Virus record (IMG/VR): IMGVR_UViG_3300027741_000205
Coordinates: 1 to 29,071 of that record
From: a virus
Length of the DNA stretch: 29,071 bases
Direction: 5' to 3' (one strand)
Every line of letters begins with the position of its first letter. Position 1 is the stretch's first letter. Positions 18,900 through 28,585 of the stretch are shown here, in pieces. The translations under genes and the position numbers were made by a program. The notes below the pieces were generated by a model. That model was not told the origin of the DNA. It ran no database searches and saw nothing but the letters and a program-made list of their open reading frames with translations.

Positions 18900-19556
18900 A
18901 TGATTAAACTATTAGATATATTAAGAGAAATTGAAGGATCTATATTAGTTCCTAGACGTTCTAAAGAAGAGCGTGAGAAGAATCATGCAATAATTATACA
19001 GAAAAAAATTAAACAGTATATAGCCGATGGTGGTAAAGGTAATCTTGATTTAAGTTATACTCCAATTACTTCATTACCTCAAGGTTTAAAAGTGGGAGGA
19101 GATCTTTGGTTAAGGGGTACTAAAATAACTTCATTACCTCAAGATTTAGAGGTAGAAGGTGATCTTTATTTAAGCTATGCACCAATTACTTCATTACCTC
19201 AAGGTTTAAAAATAGGAGGAAATATTGGTTTAAGCAATACTAAAATCACTACATTACCACAAGATTTAAAAGTAGGAGGTAGTCTTAATTTAAGCTATAC
19301 TCCAATCACAATACTACCTCAAGGTTTAGAAGTAGAAGGTAGTCTTAGTTTAAACGATACTCCAATCACTTCACTACCTAAAGATTTAGAAGTAAGAGGA
19401 AGTCTTAATTTAAGTAATACCCCAATAACTTCATTACCGGGAGATTTAAAAGTAGGTGGCAGTCTTAAGTTAAACGATACACCACTATCTAAAAAATACA
19501 CTAAAGAACAAATTAAACAAATGTACCCTGGTATAAAAGGTAACGTTAGAGTATAA
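18900..19556 (+). CDS. Leucine-rich-repeat protein, paralogue 1 (7 repeats)
   Basis: A 218-residue protein. Residues 1-46 are a leader (MIKLLDILREIEGS) plus a charged helical part (REKNH, QKKIKQYIADGGKG). Seven perfect 20-residue repeats follow, each of the form G-x-L-x-L-x-x-T-(P/K)-I-T-(S/T)-L-P-x-x-L-x-V-x. An eighth, partial repeat leads into a shared cap, SKKYTKEQIKQMYPGIKG. This is a short LRR solenoid, as in bacterial 20-residue LRR proteins with LP-x-x-L. Two paralogues lie downstream with 5 and 4 repeats. Such repeats usually bind proteins. There is no catalytic domain, signal peptide or membrane segment. Real function unknown. Confidence 0.7.
   Translation: MIKLLDILREIEGSILVPRRSKEEREKNHAIIIQKKIKQYIADGGKGNLDLSYTPITSLPQGLKVGGDLWLRGTKITSLPQDLEVEGDLYLSYAPITSLPQGLKIGGNIGLSNTKITTLPQDLKVGGSLNLSYTPITILPQGLEVEGSLSLNDTPITSLPKDLEVRGSLNLSNTPITSLPGDLKVGGSLKLNDTPLSKKYTKEQIKQMYPGIKGNVRV
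19038..19457 (+). repeat. Seven tandem 60-bp repeats inside LRR gene 1
   Basis: The unit is 60 bases (20 codons) starting at GGT/GGA codons, repeated seven times without indels from 19038 to 19457. ACTTCATTACCTCAAG and similar words recur exactly one unit apart. TP-I and TK-I repeats alternate in the first part. Copies differ mostly at solvent-face codons. Confidence 0.85.
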
Positions 19557-19570
19557 CTATTTATTATTAC
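19557..19570 (+). promoter_or_regulatory. CTATTTAT motif, copy 6
   Basis: CTATTTATTATTAC begins directly after the stop of LRR gene 1. Its core ends 10 bases before the ATG at 19575, nearly the same short spacing as copy 5. This would let the next gene be transcribed independently. Confidence 0.4.
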
Positions 19571-19574
19571 AACT

Positions 19575-20321
19575 ATGAAATTTACAAACCCAAAACTACT
19601 AAGAGAGAATAGAGTCACTATTCTAGAAAATGTAAAGCTAGGCAAGCAATACGTTCAACAAGGCAAACTATCTGAGGAAGATCTAAAGAAGCTTATCGAA
19701 ATAGATCCAACACCTCAAAAGAAATACGTTGGGTGGATGTCTAAGATTTGGATAACAGAGAAACCTGATCTAGATGATCTACGCAATACTGTTGAAGAGT
19801 ATAACACCTTTCTTAACAAAGGTAAGGTTAAGACCAAAGATATTAATCAGTTTAAATCTTTTAAAGCTTTACACGATGAAGTAAATCAAATCAATCAATC
19901 AGGAGAAGCAGTATCGGTAAAAGATCTAGAGAGTGATTACGATACCGTAATAGACAATGATCGATTACTAATCATGTCTCCACACACTCACGAAGCATCT
20001 CGTAAGTTAGGTTTATCTTATTTCTCTTTTAGAGATTGTGAAGGCGGAGGTAAAGATTCAGCTTGGTGTACCACTTATAAAGCCCCCGATCACTTTAATG
20101 ATTACTATTACACTAACAATGTTACCTTTTATTATATTAAAGTAAAATCTCCAGAATTAATACAAAAGCTAAAAGAAGCTTTTCCTAAGAGGTATAAAGA
20201 ACTAGAAGTAGTAGCACTAGCGGTATTAGACGGCGGTAAGATTGACGGGTATGATGGTTTGGATAAACAGATGAGTGCCAAGGACATTAAAACATTTACA
20301 AATATAATTGGTATAAAGTAA
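19575..20321 (+). CDS. Unknown phage protein with a SAWCTT motif, between LRR genes 1 and 2
   Basis: A 248-residue protein beginning MKFTNPKLLRENRVTILENV, a leader similar in style to the gene at 11215. The C-terminal half has FRDCEGGGKDSAWCTTYKAP, then FNDYYYTNNVTFYYIKV, and VVALAVLDGGKID. A 'S-WCT---...-F--Y----(I/V)-FYYI' pattern recurs, as I recall, in uncharacterised proteins of large phages and is sometimes found beside LRR modules. No catalytic family can be named. It ends 1 base before the start of LRR gene 2, so the two are probably co-expressed. It splits the LRR paralogue array, and I see no insertion-element ends around it. Confidence 0.5.
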   Translation: MKFTNPKLLRENRVTILENVKLGKQYVQQGKLSEEDLKKLIEIDPTPQKKYVGWMSKIWITEKPDLDDLRNTVEEYNTFLNKGKVKTKDINQFKSFKALHDEVNQINQSGEAVSVKDLESDYDTVIDNDRLLIMSPHTHEASRKLGLSYFSFRDCEGGGKDSAWCTTYKAPDHFNDYYYTNNVTFYYIKVKSPELIQKLKEAFPKRYKELEVVALAVLDGGKIDGYDGLDKQMSAKDIKTFTNIIGIK

Positions 20322-20322
20322 T

Positions 20323-20859
20323 ATGATTAAACTACTAGACATACTAAGAGAAAGTGAGGAATCAATATTAGTTCCAAGACGTTCTAGAGAAGAACGTGAG
20401 AAGAATCACTTAATAGCTGTACAGAAAAAGATTAAACAGTATATAGCCGGTGGTAGCAAAGGTGATCTTGATTTAGCACATACTCCAATCACCACCATAC
20501 CTCAAGGTTTAAAAGTAGGAGGAGATCTATGGTTAAGTGGTACTAAAATAACTTCACTACCTCAAGGTTTAGAAGTAAGAGGATATCTTGATTTAAGCAA
20601 TACTAAAATCACTACATTACCACAAGATTTAAAAGTAGGAGGTAGTCTTAATTTATACGATACCCCAATAACTTCATTACCACAAGATTTAGAAGTAGGA
20701 GCATCTCTTTGGCTAGTTAATACACCAATCACTTCACTACCTAAAGATTTAGAAGTAAGAGGAAGTCTTAATTTAAGTAATACACCGATATCAAAAAAAT
20801 ACACTAAAGAACAAATTAAACAAATGTATCCTGGCATAGAAGGTGAAGTATTCGTATAA
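20323..20859 (+). CDS. Leucine-rich-repeat protein, paralogue 2 (5 repeats)
   Basis: A 178-residue paralogue of the gene at 18900, with leader MIKLLDILRESEESILVPRR, the same helical segment, five full 20-residue LRR units, one partial unit and the same cap SKKYTKEQIKQMYPGI. It starts one base after the stop of the WCTT gene. Compared with paralogue 1 it has lost or never had two repeat units, while both ends are nearly unchanged. This points to duplication with slippage or unequal recombination inside the repeat. Confidence 0.7.
   Translation: MIKLLDILRESEESILVPRRSREEREKNHLIAVQKKIKQYIAGGSKGDLDLAHTPITTIPQGLKVGGDLWLSGTKITSLPQGLEVRGYLDLSNTKITTLPQDLKVGGSLNLYDTPITSLPQDLEVGASLWLVNTPITSLPKDLEVRGSLNLSNTPISKKYTKEQIKQMYPGIEGEVFV
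20461..20760 (+). repeat. Five tandem 60-bp repeats inside LRR gene 2
   Basis: Five units of exactly 60 bases from GGT at 20461, with no indels; a partial sixth follows from 20761. The unit phase is the same as in LRR gene 1. Confidence 0.85.
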
Positions 20860-20866
20860 AAATAAA

Positions 20867-21343
20867 ATGATTAAATTACTAGACATACTAAGAGAAAGTG
20901 AGGAATCTATACTGGTTCCTAGACGTTCTAAAGAAGAACGTGAGAAGAATCATGCAATAGCTACCCAAAAAAAGATTAAACAATATATAGCCGATGGTGG
21001 TAAAGGTGATCTTAATTTAAGCAATACACCAATAACTACCTTACCGCAAGGTTTAAAAGTAGGAGGAGATCTTTATTTAGATGATACTAAAATAACATCT
21101 CTACCTCAAGATTTAGAAGTAGGAGGGAGTATTAATTTAAGAAACACTCCAATCACTACAGTACCTCAAGGTCTAGAAGTAAAAGGATATCTTGATTTAG
21201 GTAATACTAAAATAACATCCCTACCTAAAGATTTAAAAGTAAGAGGTAACCTATACTTATGGTTTACACCGATATCTAAAAAATACACTAAAGAACAAAT
21301 TAACCAAATGCATCCAGGTATAAAAGGTGAAGTATACGTATAA
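20867..21343 (+). CDS. Leucine-rich-repeat protein, paralogue 3 (4 repeats)
   Basis: A 158-residue paralogue of the genes at 18900 and 20323. I chose ATG 20867, because the MIKLLDILRESEESI leader then aligns with the other two; an in-frame GTG at 20843 would add 8 residues inside the previous gene. It has four full 20-residue units, a partial fifth and the cap SKKYTKEQINQMHPGIKG. It is the shortest of the series 7, 5, 4. It starts 7 bases after the stop of paralogue 2. No regulatory motif separates them, so they are likely one transcript. Confidence 0.7.
   Translation: MIKLLDILRESEESILVPRRSKEEREKNHAIATQKKIKQYIADGGKGDLNLSNTPITTLPQGLKVGGDLYLDDTKITSLPQDLEVGGSINLRNTPITTVPQGLEVKGYLDLGNTKITSLPKDLKVRGNLYLWFTPISKKYTKEQINQMHPGIKGEVYV
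21005..21244 (+). repeat. Four tandem 60-bp repeats inside LRR gene 3
   Basis: Four units of exactly 60 bases from GGT at 21005, with a partial fifth from 21245. No indels. Confidence 0.85.
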
Positions 21344-22174: not shown

Positions 22175-23095
22175 ATGAGTAAAAAACAAGCAGTCCTTGC
22201 ACTTTCAGGAGGTATGGATTCAAGTACATTACTACTTCATCTACTTGCCAATGGCTATGAAGTAACCGCTCTATCATTCGACTATGGTCAAAAGCATAGA
22301 GTAGAATTAGAACGAGCACAATCGTTAGTAGAATACGTTAATACATCACCGACTAGAGCATATCCAGCAGATAGAGCTCCTGGAGGCTGGGGAGAGGTAT
22401 ACCCTAAAGTGAAACATCAAGTAATTAAACTAGACGGTCTAGCTCAGCTCTTAAATTCAGCTTTAGTTACAGGTGGTAAAGATGTTCCTGAAGGACATTA
22501 CGAACAGGATAACATGAAAGAAACTGTTGTACCTAATCGTAATAAGATCTTTAGTTCATTGATTCAAGCAGTTGCTCTATCTCTAGCTACTACCGGTGAA
22601 AAACATCAAGTAGCAATTGCATTAGGAATACATGCTGGAGATCATCAAATATATCCAGACTGTAGACAACAATTCAGAGATGCTGATATGGAAGCATTTA
22701 GAGTAGGTAACTGGGATTCTGAATTAGTAGAATTCTACACTCCGTATATAGATGGTAATAAATTTACTATATTAGAAGATGGATTACAATGTTGTGATAT
22801 CTTAGGTTTAGATTTCGATGAAGTATATAAAAGAACTAATACATCGTATAAACCAATATTCATACAGAATCCAAATTTACCACACGATATAGGAACAATA
22901 GTTTCTACCCACCCAACAGATCCTATATTTGGTACATGGTACTCAGACTATAAATCAGCAGCATCAGTAGAACGTATTGAAGCATTTATTCGTTTAGGCC
23001 GTCCAGATCCAGTAGAGTATGCTGACGAAACAGGTCCTGTTAGCTGGCAATTTGCAAAGAGTCAAGTAGAACAGGTATTAGCAGAATTTCATTAA
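22175..23095 (+). CDS. queC: QueC-like 7-cyano-7-deazaguanine (preQ0) synthase, zinc site missing
   Basis: A 306-residue PP-loop ATPase that converts 7-carboxy-7-deazaguanine to preQ0 using ATP and ammonia. PP-loop is LSGGMDSST (10-18); FDYGQKHRVELERA (35-48), VVPNRNKIF, and IHAGDHQIYPDCR are QueC hallmarks. The usual C-terminal zinc-binding Cys cluster is absent: the protein has only three Cys, none after residue 208, and the segment aligned to CG-C-SC-LR reads TWYSDYKSAASVERIEAF. An insertion (SPTRAYPADRAPGGWGEVYP, about 58-77) and a longer C-terminal region make it larger than E. coli QueC (231). It starts 5 bases after the small gene upstream and is followed by dpdA and queF. Family call strong; whether it is active without zinc is open. 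Confidence 0.8.
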   Translation: MSKKQAVLALSGGMDSSTLLLHLLANGYEVTALSFDYGQKHRVELERAQSLVEYVNTSPTRAYPADRAPGGWGEVYPKVKHQVIKLDGLAQLLNSALVTGGKDVPEGHYEQDNMKETVVPNRNKIFSSLIQAVALSLATTGEKHQVAIALGIHAGDHQIYPDCRQQFRDADMEAFRVGNWDSELVEFYTPYIDGNKFTILEDGLQCCDILGLDFDEVYKRTNTSYKPIFIQNPNLPHDIGTIVSTHPTDPIFGTWYSDYKSAASVERIEAFIRLGRPDPVEYADETGPVSWQFAKSQVEQVLAEFH

Positions 23096-23111: not shown

Positions 23112-23900
23112 ATGATGAAAATATCCCACGAAATACCTAAGCAGTTATTTCCCTACCATGATCTAATTTCGGCATACCCCTATGTCTTAGGTCACTTACT
23201 AAACCAAGACAAAGAGTATGCTGACTACTATAGAGAGAGGCTAAAGACTGCTTCCTATTCTATCTTAGATAATTCAGCTTTTGAATTAGGAGAGTCAATA
23301 CCCATGGGGGAGTTATATGAATTAGGAGAAGAATACAAACCAACCCATCTAGTATTACCCGATAAGGTTAATGACTATATGCAGACCTTGACTAATGCTG
23401 AAAACTATCTAAGTAACTTCAAATCCGATGACTTAGAGTATATTGGAGTATGTCAGGGAGAGACTTTCGAACAGATCGCTAACTGTATTGATTTCTACAC
23501 CGAACACAAAGTAGATATCATAGCATTACCTTTCGATCTAATACCTCAATCAGATTTCGTAACAGTTCGATTTAGATTCCTAAACTGGTGGTATGCCAAC
23601 AGGTTTACCTACGCAAATCAAGGTAAGTATAAGTTCCATTTACTTGGATGCCAAGATCCGGTAGAGTTTCAGTTATATAAGTACTATCAACCGCATCTAA
23701 CCAAACACTTGTATTCTCTCGATACCAGCTCTCCAATCATCAACGGATGGTTAGGTAATGAATTAGGTGAACACGGTCTAGTACAACCTAAACCCAAAGC
23801 AAAACTAGCCGATAACCTAGATATCGAGCTAACACCCGAACAAATAGATCTAATCTTTCAAAATATAAAAATCTTTAAAAGCTATGTCAATAAACACTAG
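23112..23900 (+). CDS. dpdA: DpdA-like DNA guanine transglycosylase
   Basis: A 262-residue TGT-fold protein that would exchange guanine in DNA for a 7-deazaguanine base. The layout follows TGT: YSILDNSAFELG (Asp53, aligned to the DSGGF loop), a LPDKVND segment, IGVCQGETFEQI (aligned to V-QGG), a HLLGCQDP segment, and LYSLDTSSPIINGW (Asp204 is a candidate nucleophile position). There is no CxCxxC zinc site. It is much shorter than bacterial TGT (about 370), as is normal for phage DpdA. It lies between queC and queF and overlaps queF by 17 bases (ATG 23884). Starts at 23112 or 23115 (MM) are equivalent. I cannot decide which DpdA subfamily it belongs to. Confidence 0.72.
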   Translation: MMKISHEIPKQLFPYHDLISAYPYVLGHLLNQDKEYADYYRERLKTASYSILDNSAFELGESIPMGELYELGEEYKPTHLVLPDKVNDYMQTLTNAENYLSNFKSDDLEYIGVCQGETFEQIANCIDFYTEHKVDIIALPFDLIPQSDFVTVRFRFLNWWYANRFTYANQGKYKFHLLGCQDPVEFQLYKYYQPHLTKHLYSLDTSSPIINGWLGNELGEHGLVQPKPKAKLADNLDIELTPEQIDLIFQNIKIFKSYVNKH

Positions 23901-24816
23901 TAACCTTTCAATGAGCGATTACGCAGCTAGATCTCTAGGCTCCGCAAACTCATACGCTGTCTACACAGAAACCTTCGATCCTTCGCAGCTAAATCCAATG
24001 CCACGTTCAGCAGCACGTCAAGACTGGGGAATAACCGGTAATGAATTTGTTGGATATGATGTCTGGCATTGTCACGAAGCAACTTTTCTTATAGAGAATG
24101 GATTACCGCTAGCAGGTACTCTAAAAATCATCTGTCCTTCTACCTCAGAATTTATGGTAGAATCAAAATCATTTAAGCTATACCTCAATACGTTTGATAT
24201 GTGTAAGATGGGTAAGACTGTAGATGAAGCTATTTACAATTATGAAACACAAGTTCAAAAAGATATCAGTCAATGTATTGGTGCAAATGTTGAAGTTAAA
24301 TTCTTTAGATCTGGAGATGATCGCAAACTTAGCTACGATCCTGGTACAGGTTATGTAGATTTATACGAGAGTTTAACCGATAAAGAATTAGAGGCATTAG
24401 AGATCACAGACTATCAAGCTAAGGAATTCTACAGTATCATCGACGATACATCTGCGCTACCTGGAGACTTTTCATTCTTTACAAACGTCCTAAGATCAAG
24501 ATGTAGACATACCAAACAAAAAGATACCGGTACGGCATTTTTTAATATCGTAACACATAAAGGTACAGTTAATAAACAAGAGTTACTAAAACTAGTTATT
24601 TCTCTAAGAGAGGTAAACGAGTTTCATGAGTTTTGTGCTGAAAAACTATATACCGAAATCATGAAGAACCCAATGGTGAAGGAATGTAGTGTGATGTTGT
24701 TATATGCTAGAAGAGGATCTTTAGATATATGTCCAGTGAGAGCGACTAAAGAATCTTTAGTTAGTATAGGTTTAAAGTCTAAATATTATTACACCACAAA
24801 AACAATGGGACAGTAA
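23884..24816 (+). CDS. queF: QueF-like preQ0 nitrile reductase (type II)
   Basis: A 310-residue two-domain protein that would reduce the nitrile of preQ0 to aminomethyl (preQ1) with NADPH. The QueF motif ESKSFKLY is at 93-100. The catalytic Cys is Cys207 in LRSRCRHTKQKDTGT, which parallels LKSNCLITHQPDWG of E. coli QueF. NEFHEFC supplies the His-Glu pair, and RRGSLDICPVRAT matches the C-terminal RRGGLDINPWRS. Length is close to E. coli QueF (282). WHCHEATFL near 61-69 belongs to the N-terminal half. The start overlaps dpdA; an in-frame ATG at 23914 is an alternative. It could act on free preQ0 or on the base already in DNA; the sequence does not tell. Confidence 0.82.
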   Translation: MSINTSNLSMSDYAARSLGSANSYAVYTETFDPSQLNPMPRSAARQDWGITGNEFVGYDVWHCHEATFLIENGLPLAGTLKIICPSTSEFMVESKSFKLYLNTFDMCKMGKTVDEAIYNYETQVQKDISQCIGANVEVKFFRSGDDRKLSYDPGTGYVDLYESLTDKELEALEITDYQAKEFYSIIDDTSALPGDFSFFTNVLRSRCRHTKQKDTGTAFFNIVTHKGTVNKQELLKLVISLREVNEFHEFCAEKLYTEIMKNPMVKECSVMLLYARRGSLDICPVRATKESLVSIGLKSKYYYTTKTMGQ

Positions 24817-25414: not shown

Positions 25415-25924
25415 ATGAAAATACTTGTAGGCAGCCATGGCGTAGGCAAAAGCACGCTACTAAAAGAAGTTCAGAGAACATATCCAGACTACTACATTAC
25501 AGACGGGTTTTCTAGACCTGTGTATAAGATTAGTAAGATGCTAGACTTCTCTGAGCATGAAAAGCAGATCGTTATCAACGAACTCTCTATCTGGGCATAT
25601 CAAAACTACCTAACACATCAAAACGTGTTATCTACCCGTAGTATTATTGACTGTATAATCTATACCAGGATCTTGCATCCAAGTATTGATGTTAGTCCGA
25701 TGATAGAGTTATTTGAGGAGACTAAACATCAAGTTGATAACTTCTTCTATATACCGATTGAATTCGGATTTGTATACGACCCCGAAAGATTAAACGAAGA
25801 ACTCCAGAAGAAAGTAGATGGATTATTCGTAGACTTTATTAGAGAGTATGTACCGACAGAAAAACTTATTACCATCACAGGAACTATTGAACAAAGACTA
25901 GAACAAATATCAAAATACTTATAA
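25415..25924 (+). CDS. P-loop ATPase/kinase-like protein of unknown substrate
   Basis: A 169-residue protein with Walker A GSHGVGKST at residues 6-14 and a kinase-like size. IIDCIIYTRI, in the position of Walker B, supplies an Asp. The 'SH-G-GKST' loop with a short helical body is seen in AAA_28/NadR-type phage nucleotide kinases. It is transcribed between the formyltransferase and QueD genes, with its own promoter-like element. A nucleotide or polynucleotide kinase role would fit, but nothing in the sequence fixes the substrate. It could be unrelated to the deazaguanine pathway. Confidence 0.6.
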   Translation: MKILVGSHGVGKSTLLKEVQRTYPDYYITDGFSRPVYKISKMLDFSEHEKQIVINELSIWAYQNYLTHQNVLSTRSIIDCIIYTRILHPSIDVSPMIELFEETKHQVDNFFYIPIEFGFVYDPERLNEELQKKVDGLFVDFIREYVPTEKLITITGTIEQRLEQISKYL

Positions 25925-25925
25925 A

Positions 25926-26388
25926 ATGTTTCAATCAACTAAATTATTTGATGGGTACTCTACAGTCTTCCGCCAGTGGAGAGCTGAGGGTACCCATTGT
26001 TAGCAAATTTTTACACGGCTATGGCATATCCTTTAGGGTGTGGTTTGAAGGAGAGCTAGACTATAGAAACTGGGTATGGGATTTTGGCGGTATGAAGAGA
26101 GCTAAGACAGCTATCGATGGAATGAATCCAAAGATGTGGATGGATCATATGTTCGATCACACTACCTTGATAGCCGTAGATGATCCGTACTTGGAGAATT
26201 TTAAAAGAATGGATGCAGAAGGCATTATACAGCTACGCATCATTCCAGCTACTGGAGCAGAACAATTTGCCAAGTATGTCTACGATAAGCTAAGTAGCTT
26301 TGTAGAAACTGAAACCGATGGCAGAGTTAAGATAGCTCAGGTAGAGTTTATGGAACACAGTAAAAATACAGCAATCTACAAACCATAA
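25926..26388 (+). CDS. queD: QueD-like 6-carboxytetrahydropterin synthase interrupted by a frame break
   Basis: QueD makes 6-carboxytetrahydropterin, the second step of preQ0 synthesis. From ATG 25926 the frame reads MFQSTKLFDGYSTVFRQWRA, then EGTHC, and stops at TAG 26001-26003. In the +1 frame the text continues SKFLHGYGISF, then RNWVWDFGGMK, MFDHTTLIA, DDPYLENF, an ATGAEQFA segment and MEHSKN-TAIY. Together these give the full QueD pattern, with the catalytic Cys as the last codon before the break. Skipping one base at TGT-TAG-C joins the halves into about 153 residues, near normal length. So either the ribosome shifts +1, the sequence has an error, or the gene is broken. The 3' part alone lacks the Cys. 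The normal second zinc His (HGH) is HGY. Confidence 0.7.
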
Positions 26389-27497: not shown

Positions 27498-27737
27498 ATG
27501 GAGGAAAAAACTATGAAGTGTCTAAAGAACAGAAAAACATCAAACATCGTCAGAGTATCTGACCAACAAGCCCAACAAATGGTAGGTACTCAGTGGGAGT
27601 ATGTATCTAAATCCGAGTGGAAACAAGTTACTAGAAAAATAGTTAAAATAGCAGAAGAACCTATAAAAGGTGGAGATGCAATAGCAGAAACTATTGAAGA
27701 AAAAAGATTAAAACATAAAAAACAAAAATCTAAGTAA
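27498..27737 (+). CDS. Small Lys-rich protein of unknown function
   Basis: Up to 79 residues. Two starts are plausible. ATG 27498 has the A-rich leader common here. ATG 27513 gives MKCLKNRKTSNIVRVSDQQA, a natural-looking domain start, and is preceded 8 bases earlier by GGAGG (27500-27504), a rare Shine-Dalgarno match for this genome. The text V-Q--AQ-MVG--WEYVSKSEWK recurs in small phage proteins of a 'WK(Y)(V/I)-KSEWK' kind. The C-terminus is a run of Lys, Arg and His. TATATTAA lies upstream at 27476-27483, without a good TTG. It overlaps the queE start by one base. Confidence 0.55.
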   Translation: MEEKTMKCLKNRKTSNIVRVSDQQAQQMVGTQWEYVSKSEWKQVTRKIVKIAEEPIKGGDAIAETIEEKRLKHKKQKSK

Positions 27738-28585
27738 TGAGTAAAATAGATCCAAACAAGCTGTTAATCAGCTCAGACTTCTACTCCGTACAAGGAGAAG
27801 GTATATCAACAGGAATACCATCATATTTCGTTCGCTTAGGTATATGTAACCTAACTTGCGGTATGAGTAGAGCATTCACTAACGCTTTATTAAAAGAAGC
27901 ATCATTAGCCGATGGTGAAATATTTAAAGGCGATTTAGAACTAGAAGGTAAAGCAACCTGGACCTGTGATTCAACATCACAATGGCTATGGAGAGGTGAA
28001 GATAAGGAGTTTCAATATCTGATTGATCAATGGAAAGAACAAGATATCTACGAAGATATTAGAAAGGGTACTATCCATATCATTTGGACTGGTGGTGAAC
28101 CTACAATTAAAGGACATCAAGAAGCTATTAGCAATTTCTTCAAATATTGGGATCAAGTAGATCCAATAAGACCAGGAACATATGGTAAAACTCCATACTA
28201 TGAAATAGAAACAAATGGCACAATAATAATCGATGATATACTATGGGGTTCACTAGACCAAATCAACTGCTCACCAAAGCTATCCAACTCAGGTATGACT
28301 GAGAAACAACGTATTAACCCAGACGCTATTAAGCGTATAATGGAACACAGCTTGTACCAGTTTAAGTTTGTTGTTAGCGTAGAGGATGACATCAAAGAGA
28401 TATTCAGAGACTTCATTGAGCCGTTTAATATACCGTTGAAGAATGTAGTAATAATGCCTGGAATGGATAGTCAGGATCAATACCATGAAAGAACACATTT
28501 CATATTAGAAATGGCAAAGAAGTACAGAATCAGAGGACTCAGTAGACTTCATATTTCTGCCTACGATAAGACGCTTAACGTTTAA
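27737..28585 (+). CDS. queE: QueE-like 7-carboxy-7-deazaguanine synthase (radical SAM)
   Basis: A 282-residue radical-SAM enzyme that turns 6-carboxytetrahydropterin into 7-carboxy-7-deazaguanine. SSDFYSVQGEGISTGIPSYF (12-31) is the QueE signature. The iron-sulphur ligands appear as Cys37 and Cys41 (GICNLTCG) and Cys77 (ATWTCDS), a Cx3C-x35-C layout with a long insert, rather than the compact CxxC end. IIWTGGEPTI (115-124) is the SAM-binding GGEP motif. Later YEIETNGT and INCSPKLSNSG match QueE. The start overlaps the previous gene by one base (TAATGA type). It completes the pathway with QueD and QueC. Confidence 0.85.
   Translation: MSKIDPNKLLISSDFYSVQGEGISTGIPSYFVRLGICNLTCGMSRAFTNALLKEASLADGEIFKGDLELEGKATWTCDSTSQWLWRGEDKEFQYLIDQWKEQDIYEDIRKGTIHIIWTGGEPTIKGHQEAISNFFKYWDQVDPIRPGTYGKTPYYEIETNGTIIIDDILWGSLDQINCSPKLSNSGMTEKQRINPDAIKRIMEHSLYQFKFVVSVEDDIKEIFRDFIEPFNIPLKNVVIMPGMDSQDQYHERTHFILEMAKKYRIRGLSRLHISAYDKTLNV

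Follow-up and report, generated by a model that had tools for sequence, protein, structure and literature searches.

The queD gene in the analysed viral DNA (29,071 nucleotides, hereafter the window) is interrupted directly behind its catalytic-site cysteine codon by the four bases TAGC, and the same kind of interruption, each time preceded by a strong hairpin in the coding sequence, recurs in at least nine further IMG/VR contigs. Judged from the sequences, the gene is probably decoded by programmed translational bypassing, with hairpin and gap acting as a small mobile insertion, which in some phages is associated with an HNH endonuclease gene. The parts of the interrupted gene are as follows (L numbers denote the other contigs).

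25926..26003, + strand: queD ORF1, 25 codons, the last being the catalytic-site Cys codon, then TAG; the protein agrees with 80 of 80 intact relatives up to THC
25950..25998, + strand: coding-sequence hairpin with arms 25950–25971 and 25978–25998; outer stem GATGGGTACTC / GAGGGTACCCATT, which extends to base 1 of the Cys codon; MFE −28.5 kcal/mol
25998..26000, + strand: proposed take-off codon TGT (Cys); TGT or TGC is the last codon before the stop in 10/10 broken alleles
26001..26004, + strand: coding gap TAGC, with the stop TAG first; missing in 80/80 closest relatives; same gap in L082–L086 and L194, 5 nt in L195, 7 nt in L175 and L180
26002..26004, + strand: proposed landing triplet AGC, of the form NGY, which would form two of three pairs with tRNA-Cys (GCA); AGC, AGT, AGT and CGT in the four gap types
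26005..26388, + strand: queD ORF2, resuming at AAA and running as KFLHGYG... to TAA; PF01242; all 39 conserved columns kept

Translation of frame 0 from ATG 25926 gives MFQSTKLFDGYSTVFRQWRAEGTHC, followed by the stop codon TAG at 26001–26003. The downstream half belongs to the PTPS/QueD family (PF01242, E 6.8e-13) and lies in a +1-class frame that stays open to 26388; the match of the window protein to the NCBIfam QueD model falls below the cut-off of that model. A Cys preceding the HGx motif of the PTPS domain is present, and its spacing is canonical only across the gap. The closest intact relatives (best 80, IMG/VR) have an unbroken frame and read THC-[RKQS]-F-[LM]-HGYG in every case, and the break at the window junction (TGT-TAGC-AAA-TTT-TTA-CAC-GGC-TAT) is therefore described as a 4-nt insert. 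The initial annotation had placed a real frame break correctly at the catalytic Cys, but had assumed one extra base and a Cys one residue too far from the HGY motif. Skipping the four bases instead gives C-K-F-L-H-G-Y with the usual spacing, whereas a +1 shift would add one residue.

A degenerate scan of IMG/VR for THC followed by TAGC and FxHGYG identified five contigs, L082–L086. When any gap of 4–34 nt was admitted and no stop was required, two further true queD genes were found, L175 and L180, with gaps of 7 nt (TGATAGT and TGACCGT, respectively), and L194 (TAGC) and L195 (TAAGT, 5 nt) emerged from a search for THC followed by a stop. Including the window, there are at least ten interrupted alleles from different metagenomes, with four gap types of 4, 5 or 7 nt. 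A stop codon (TAG, TAA or TGA) directly follows the Cys codon in 10/10 broken alleles, a feature that the search demanded for L194, L195 and the TAGC set only; L175 and L180 were retrieved without this condition. NGY precedes the resume codon throughout (10/10; AGC, AGT, AGT or CGT), i.e., TGY at take-off is answered by NGY at landing and two of three bases match. L175 and L180 differ in the middle of the gap and retain its length, the stop and the final GT. Once skipped, each of the four gap types leaves C-[K/R]-[F/Y]-[L/I]-H with zero added residues. The 5-nt gap of L195 shifts ORF2 to another frame, which excludes a common +1 slip, and a sequencing error is ruled out by the presence of this type of break in nine further contigs from other metagenomes. 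Most relatives have an unbroken queD, an outcome that the initial annotation had expected to speak against recoding; the idea survives, since the break is conserved in another set of relatives. What underlies the break is larger than was seen at first, namely a conserved, probably mobile candidate bypass site of 4–7 nt.

The exact 30-nt junction of the window occurs in no other IMG/VR contig. No such break was found in bacterial genomes, where six pattern matches turned out not to be queD, nor among GenBank isolates, where the immuto phages and MA9V-3 are annotated with unbroken genes. A backup copy was not found either, each record holding one queD locus where detected. When 6870 stops followed by another open frame were screened in all loci, the broken queD genes dominated the top, and none of the other candidates convinced as a second gene with this architecture. 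Decoding by a suppressor or special tRNA was considered and rejected: the window contains no tRNA, and one tRNA-Met is located near queD in L175. Stop reassignment was likewise dismissed, as 5 of the 31 window ORFs counted terminate at TAG, and each of the three stops is in use among the broken relatives. A sequence search of the PDB returned one match, a protein kinase, which is spurious. L194 shows a second frame slip within ORF2 at a T7 run (TTTTTTT), which is either genuine or a fault of the assembly.

In each broken allele, a single long hairpin spans 49 nt, the last of which is also the first base of the Cys codon. For the 51-nt segment, all ten broken alleles gave MFE values between −25.3 and −30.3 kcal/mol, as compared to a mean of −10.4 (sd 2.9) for 93 distinct intact relatives; the lowest value among the latter, −24.6, belongs to a different fold. 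The outer 11-bp stem has 10–11 pairs formed in broken alleles and a mean of 6.1 in intact ones, one of which (L064) reaches 10. None of 5000 codon-usage-weighted synonymous sequences attained the energy of the window hairpin, which is thus not due to chance, and the mean of these randomisations (−10.4) equals that of the intact relatives. Compensatory base-pair changes were identified at columns 14–48 (AU/UA), 15–47 (CG/UA) and 21–42 (AU/GC). The change at 15–47 is found in L194, where it even turns EGTHC into EDTHC, and the inner stem of L195 pairs through quite different bases. The covariation comprises 10 double-changed cells and scores 0.178 versus 0.099 when shuffled, with 0/500 shuffles as high, a shuffle statistic that is inflated by related sequences; sliding the partner destroyed the signal. 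It should be noted that the covariation fits an RNA hairpin and a DNA inverted repeat equally well.

Sequence comparison indicates that the frame downstream of the gap is under purifying selection. L083 and L086, sisters with full support that are each interrupted by TAGC, show pS 0.59 and pN 0.07 in ORF2 (dN/dS 0.058), and the seven broken alleles long enough to score violate 0–1 of 39 conserved columns. In the ORF2 tree, where many forks are unresolved, the broken alleles are scattered and well supported branches force at least five changes. The upstream part of the window gene stands out against its surroundings:

25921..26010, + strand: proposed transferred block, an island about 99% identical to the broken queD of L084 within flanks of about 77%

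Along the alignment with L084, identity is 97–100% from about −80 to +10 and about 77% on either side; the last 66 nt before the gap are identical, while ORF2 is 74% identical. In 726 intact pairs of comparable ORF2 identity, the 5' part is at most 91% identical. Such an island is not dictated by constraint alone, because L195 and L175 retain the hairpin at 77–79% identity to the window. The same pattern is seen between L194 and the window (95% against 66%). From these profiles, the island of about 90 nt shared by the window and L084 looks to have been transferred between phages.

In L082, L085 and L194, queD is immediately preceded by a gene for an HNH protein; such a neighbour within 100 nt was found beside three broken copies and beside none of 93 intact ones. 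The domain is PF13392 (E 8e-12 in L194, 1e-12 in L085), with the PHROG annotation "intron-like DNA endonuclease", and the neighbours in L194 and L201 match PHROG HNH families. Over its N-terminal 85 residues, the HNH protein shares 61–63% identity with proteins whose genes lie inside the split nrdB of T-even phages, at the position of I-TevIII, whereas the C-terminus is unrelated to them. An IMG/VR scan for the family returned full-length members in L082, L085, L194 and L201, all four directly upstream of queD, and all four combine an HNH domain with a fixed place beside the presumed target, as is characteristic of free-standing HNH homing endonucleases. The queD gene of L201 is intact but diverged at the site (SHCEKLHGY). 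A relationship to T4 MobA was not detectable. An I-TevIII-like HNH gene directly upstream of queD is absent in L084, L195, L086, L175, L180 and the window, where this place is taken by a thymidylate-kinase-like gene; the homing part of the model would thus draw on the relatives and not on the window. L083 carries a different, weakly matched possible nuclease upstream of queD. Further probable GIY-YIG- or HNH-like ORFs were recognised by eye at −2699..−1916 in L085, +1547..+2177 in L082, +2363..+3041 in L086 and +1316..+2093 in L175 (relative to the end of the Cys codon), suggesting that the surrounding 7-deazaguanine cluster is a homing hot spot.

In the proposed mechanism, the ribosome would read the 25 codons of ORF1 and stall when UGU in the P site holds peptidyl-tRNA-Cys and the A site is occupied by the stop codon. 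The tip of the strong hairpin, located in the mRNA just translated, would fold outside the exit channel, and zippering of the remaining pairs, which can form only if the mRNA moves forward, would pull the mRNA until the tRNA lets go. The tRNA-Cys (anticodon GCA) would then move 4 nt downstream, re-pair on AGC at positions 2 and 3 and resume at AAA, giving full-length QueD with the Cys in place. A hop of tRNA-Cys onto NGY would fit all broken alleles. Hairpin and gap may spread between phages by recombination; the gap would break the target of the HNH endonuclease in queD, and bypassing would keep QueD alive. Against bypassing stand the non-identical take-off and landing codons, and ORF1 of the window, with only 25 aa, shows no KKYK-like nascent-peptide signal. 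Whether the insertion amounts to a self-contained mobile recoding cassette, i.e. selfish DNA in a catalytic site that exploits a hairpin-driven ribosome hop in place of RNA or protein splicing, is spread by a dedicated homing endonuclease and is repeatedly gained and lost among flavobacterial phages, is a question on which we are evenly divided.

That the two halves of QueD are joined by programmed recoding, as put forward in the initial annotation, is strongly supported by the recurrence, the covarying hairpin and the purifying selection, whereas the prfB-like +1 slip suggested there is disfavoured by offsets of +4, +5 and +7. In such a slip, tRNA-Cys would move by one base at UGU-UAG-C and Ser (AGC) would be inserted to give C-S-K-FLHGY. 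The window and its 4- and 7-nt relatives all fall into the +1 class, and such shifts typically occur with a stop codon in the A site, but the frame of L195 differs, re-pairing of UGU to GUU or GCU is poor (the former already recognised in the initial annotation), and no Shine-Dalgarno element is present at the 3-nt spacing of such shifts. Moreover, the shift would add one residue between Cys and HGY (two with the 7-nt gaps), as observed in 0/80 closest relatives, and we regard it as unlikely. Independent initiation of ORF2, for instance at the out-of-frame ATG 25951 inside the hairpin, would yield two polypeptides. The ATG of GATGGG does open the ORF2 frame in the 4- and 7-nt alleles, and phages do split genes beside homing endonucleases; still, in L195 this ATG lies outside the ORF2 frame and the product would have an unrelated N-terminus and no Cys, which makes this reading very improbable.

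A role at the DNA level only, with insert and inverted repeat serving as endonuclease protection or recombination site and QueD lost or unneeded, would agree with the HNH gene adjoining three broken copies, with the transferred island and with an inverted repeat that would exist in DNA too. It is quite improbable in view of an ORF2 that stays open with its conserved columns kept (dN/dS 0.058 between two broken sisters), and of gaps that all begin with a stop, end with GY and vary in the middle (TGATAGT/TGACCGT), a pattern that protection alone does not need. An ordinary frameshift pseudogene or an assembly error might be expected from a metagenomic contig whose exact 30-nt junction is found in no other and whose relatives are mostly unbroken, yet it is contradicted by the recurrence of the architecture in at least nine more contigs, as well as by the conserved hairpin and the selection, and is hardly credible. 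The initial annotation also proposed that the break makes QueD, and with it the DNA modification, adjustable; this is conceivable but unsupported, and a tolerated, apparently mobile insertion fits the pattern better.

The closest precedent for bypassing is T4 gene 60, where a UAG follows the take-off codon, a partly formed 5' stem-loop outside the exit channel pulls the mRNA while completing, with the tRNA landing at a matched codon (PMC5009743; PMC11194080). The broken queD genes share the stop directly after take-off, a 5' hairpin upstream of the take-off codon that is proposed to pull the mRNA, and out-of-frame resumption. They differ in that the gap measures 4–7 nt rather than 50 nt and has no room for a take-off stem-loop, the landing triplet is not identical to the take-off codon, and the hairpin is much stronger and abuts the take-off codon. 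The KKYK signal and the stem-loop within the gap that characterise gene 60 are missing in queD, with its short ORF1 devoid of KKYK. The gene mobA lies near gene 60, and the gap there is thought to protect against the nuclease. Some broken queD genes resemble this pair in having an HNH homing-endonuclease gene just upstream, and in both cases the gap is missing in most relatives. According to one review, bypassing appears unique to gene 60 among T4-related phages (PMC3014915), whereas the queD break concerns a metabolic gene and recurs across many phages. The byps of Magnusiomyces capitatus mitochondria are likewise short inserts that are apparently skipped in translation, with two-of-three landing pairing accepted or proposed, but they are reported as context-independent at 81 mitochondrial sites, whereas in queD a single site in phage DNA has a hairpin of its own. 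In prfB the stop codon also occupies the A site at the shift; in queD the offset is not +1 in all members, there is no matching slippery re-pairing, and a hairpin replaces the Shine-Dalgarno element. The terminase of Streptomyces phage Hau3, a likely case of bypassing, also has a short coding gap in a phage gene that is proposed to be bypassed, but it is tied to a rare UUA codon and, in the text consulted, no covarying hairpin or homing endonuclease is reported.

In the open-access literature searched, neither bypassing nor frameshifting was found described for phage queD. The recurrence of the break behind a strong hairpin points to a previously undescribed, apparently mobile signal for ribosome hopping. 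Knowledge of bypassing in phage has come chiefly from a single case, T4 gene 60, to which queD would add a second, independent family. The natural variants provide comparative rules on gap length, stop identity, landing pairing and hairpin covariation, and the apparatus, made up of no more than a hairpin, a single codon, a stop and four bases, is small enough for exhaustive testing. The data further suggest that the pairing of homing endonuclease and bypass signal arose more than once; alongside introns and inteins, such a pairing would allow selfish DNA to reside in essential sequence by a third route. Gene finders would call the interrupted queD genes broken.

The window queD sits in a 7-deazaguanine cluster that resembles that of Flavobacterium phage immuto, and the window phage probably infects flavobacteria. 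Such clusters modify phage DNA against restriction (PMC6884629). The other members are:

22175..23095, + strand: QueC (PF06508, E 3.9e-37)
23884..24816, + strand: QueF (PF14819 and PF14489)
27737..28585, + strand: QueE (phrog_2076, QueE-like, E 1.7e-37)

The QueE protein (27737–28585) carries a long insert in its Cys-rich loop (CNLTCGMSRAFTNALLKEASLADGEIFKGDLELEGKATWTCDST) that is common to several relatives and has no Pfam match. An ORF at 23112–23900 corresponds to phrog_19058 (unknown); in the cluster of phage immuto, an annotated DpdA DNA-guanine transglycosylase is encoded shortly before the formyltransferase, kinase and QueF genes, and the window ORF is likely a divergent DpdA. Outside the cluster, three paralogous ORFs (MIKLLDILRE...) at 18900–21343 each contain repeats like TPITSLPQGLKVGGDL; the first two are separated by an unrelated ORF (19575–20321), and the set looks like a tandem duplication of a repeat protein.
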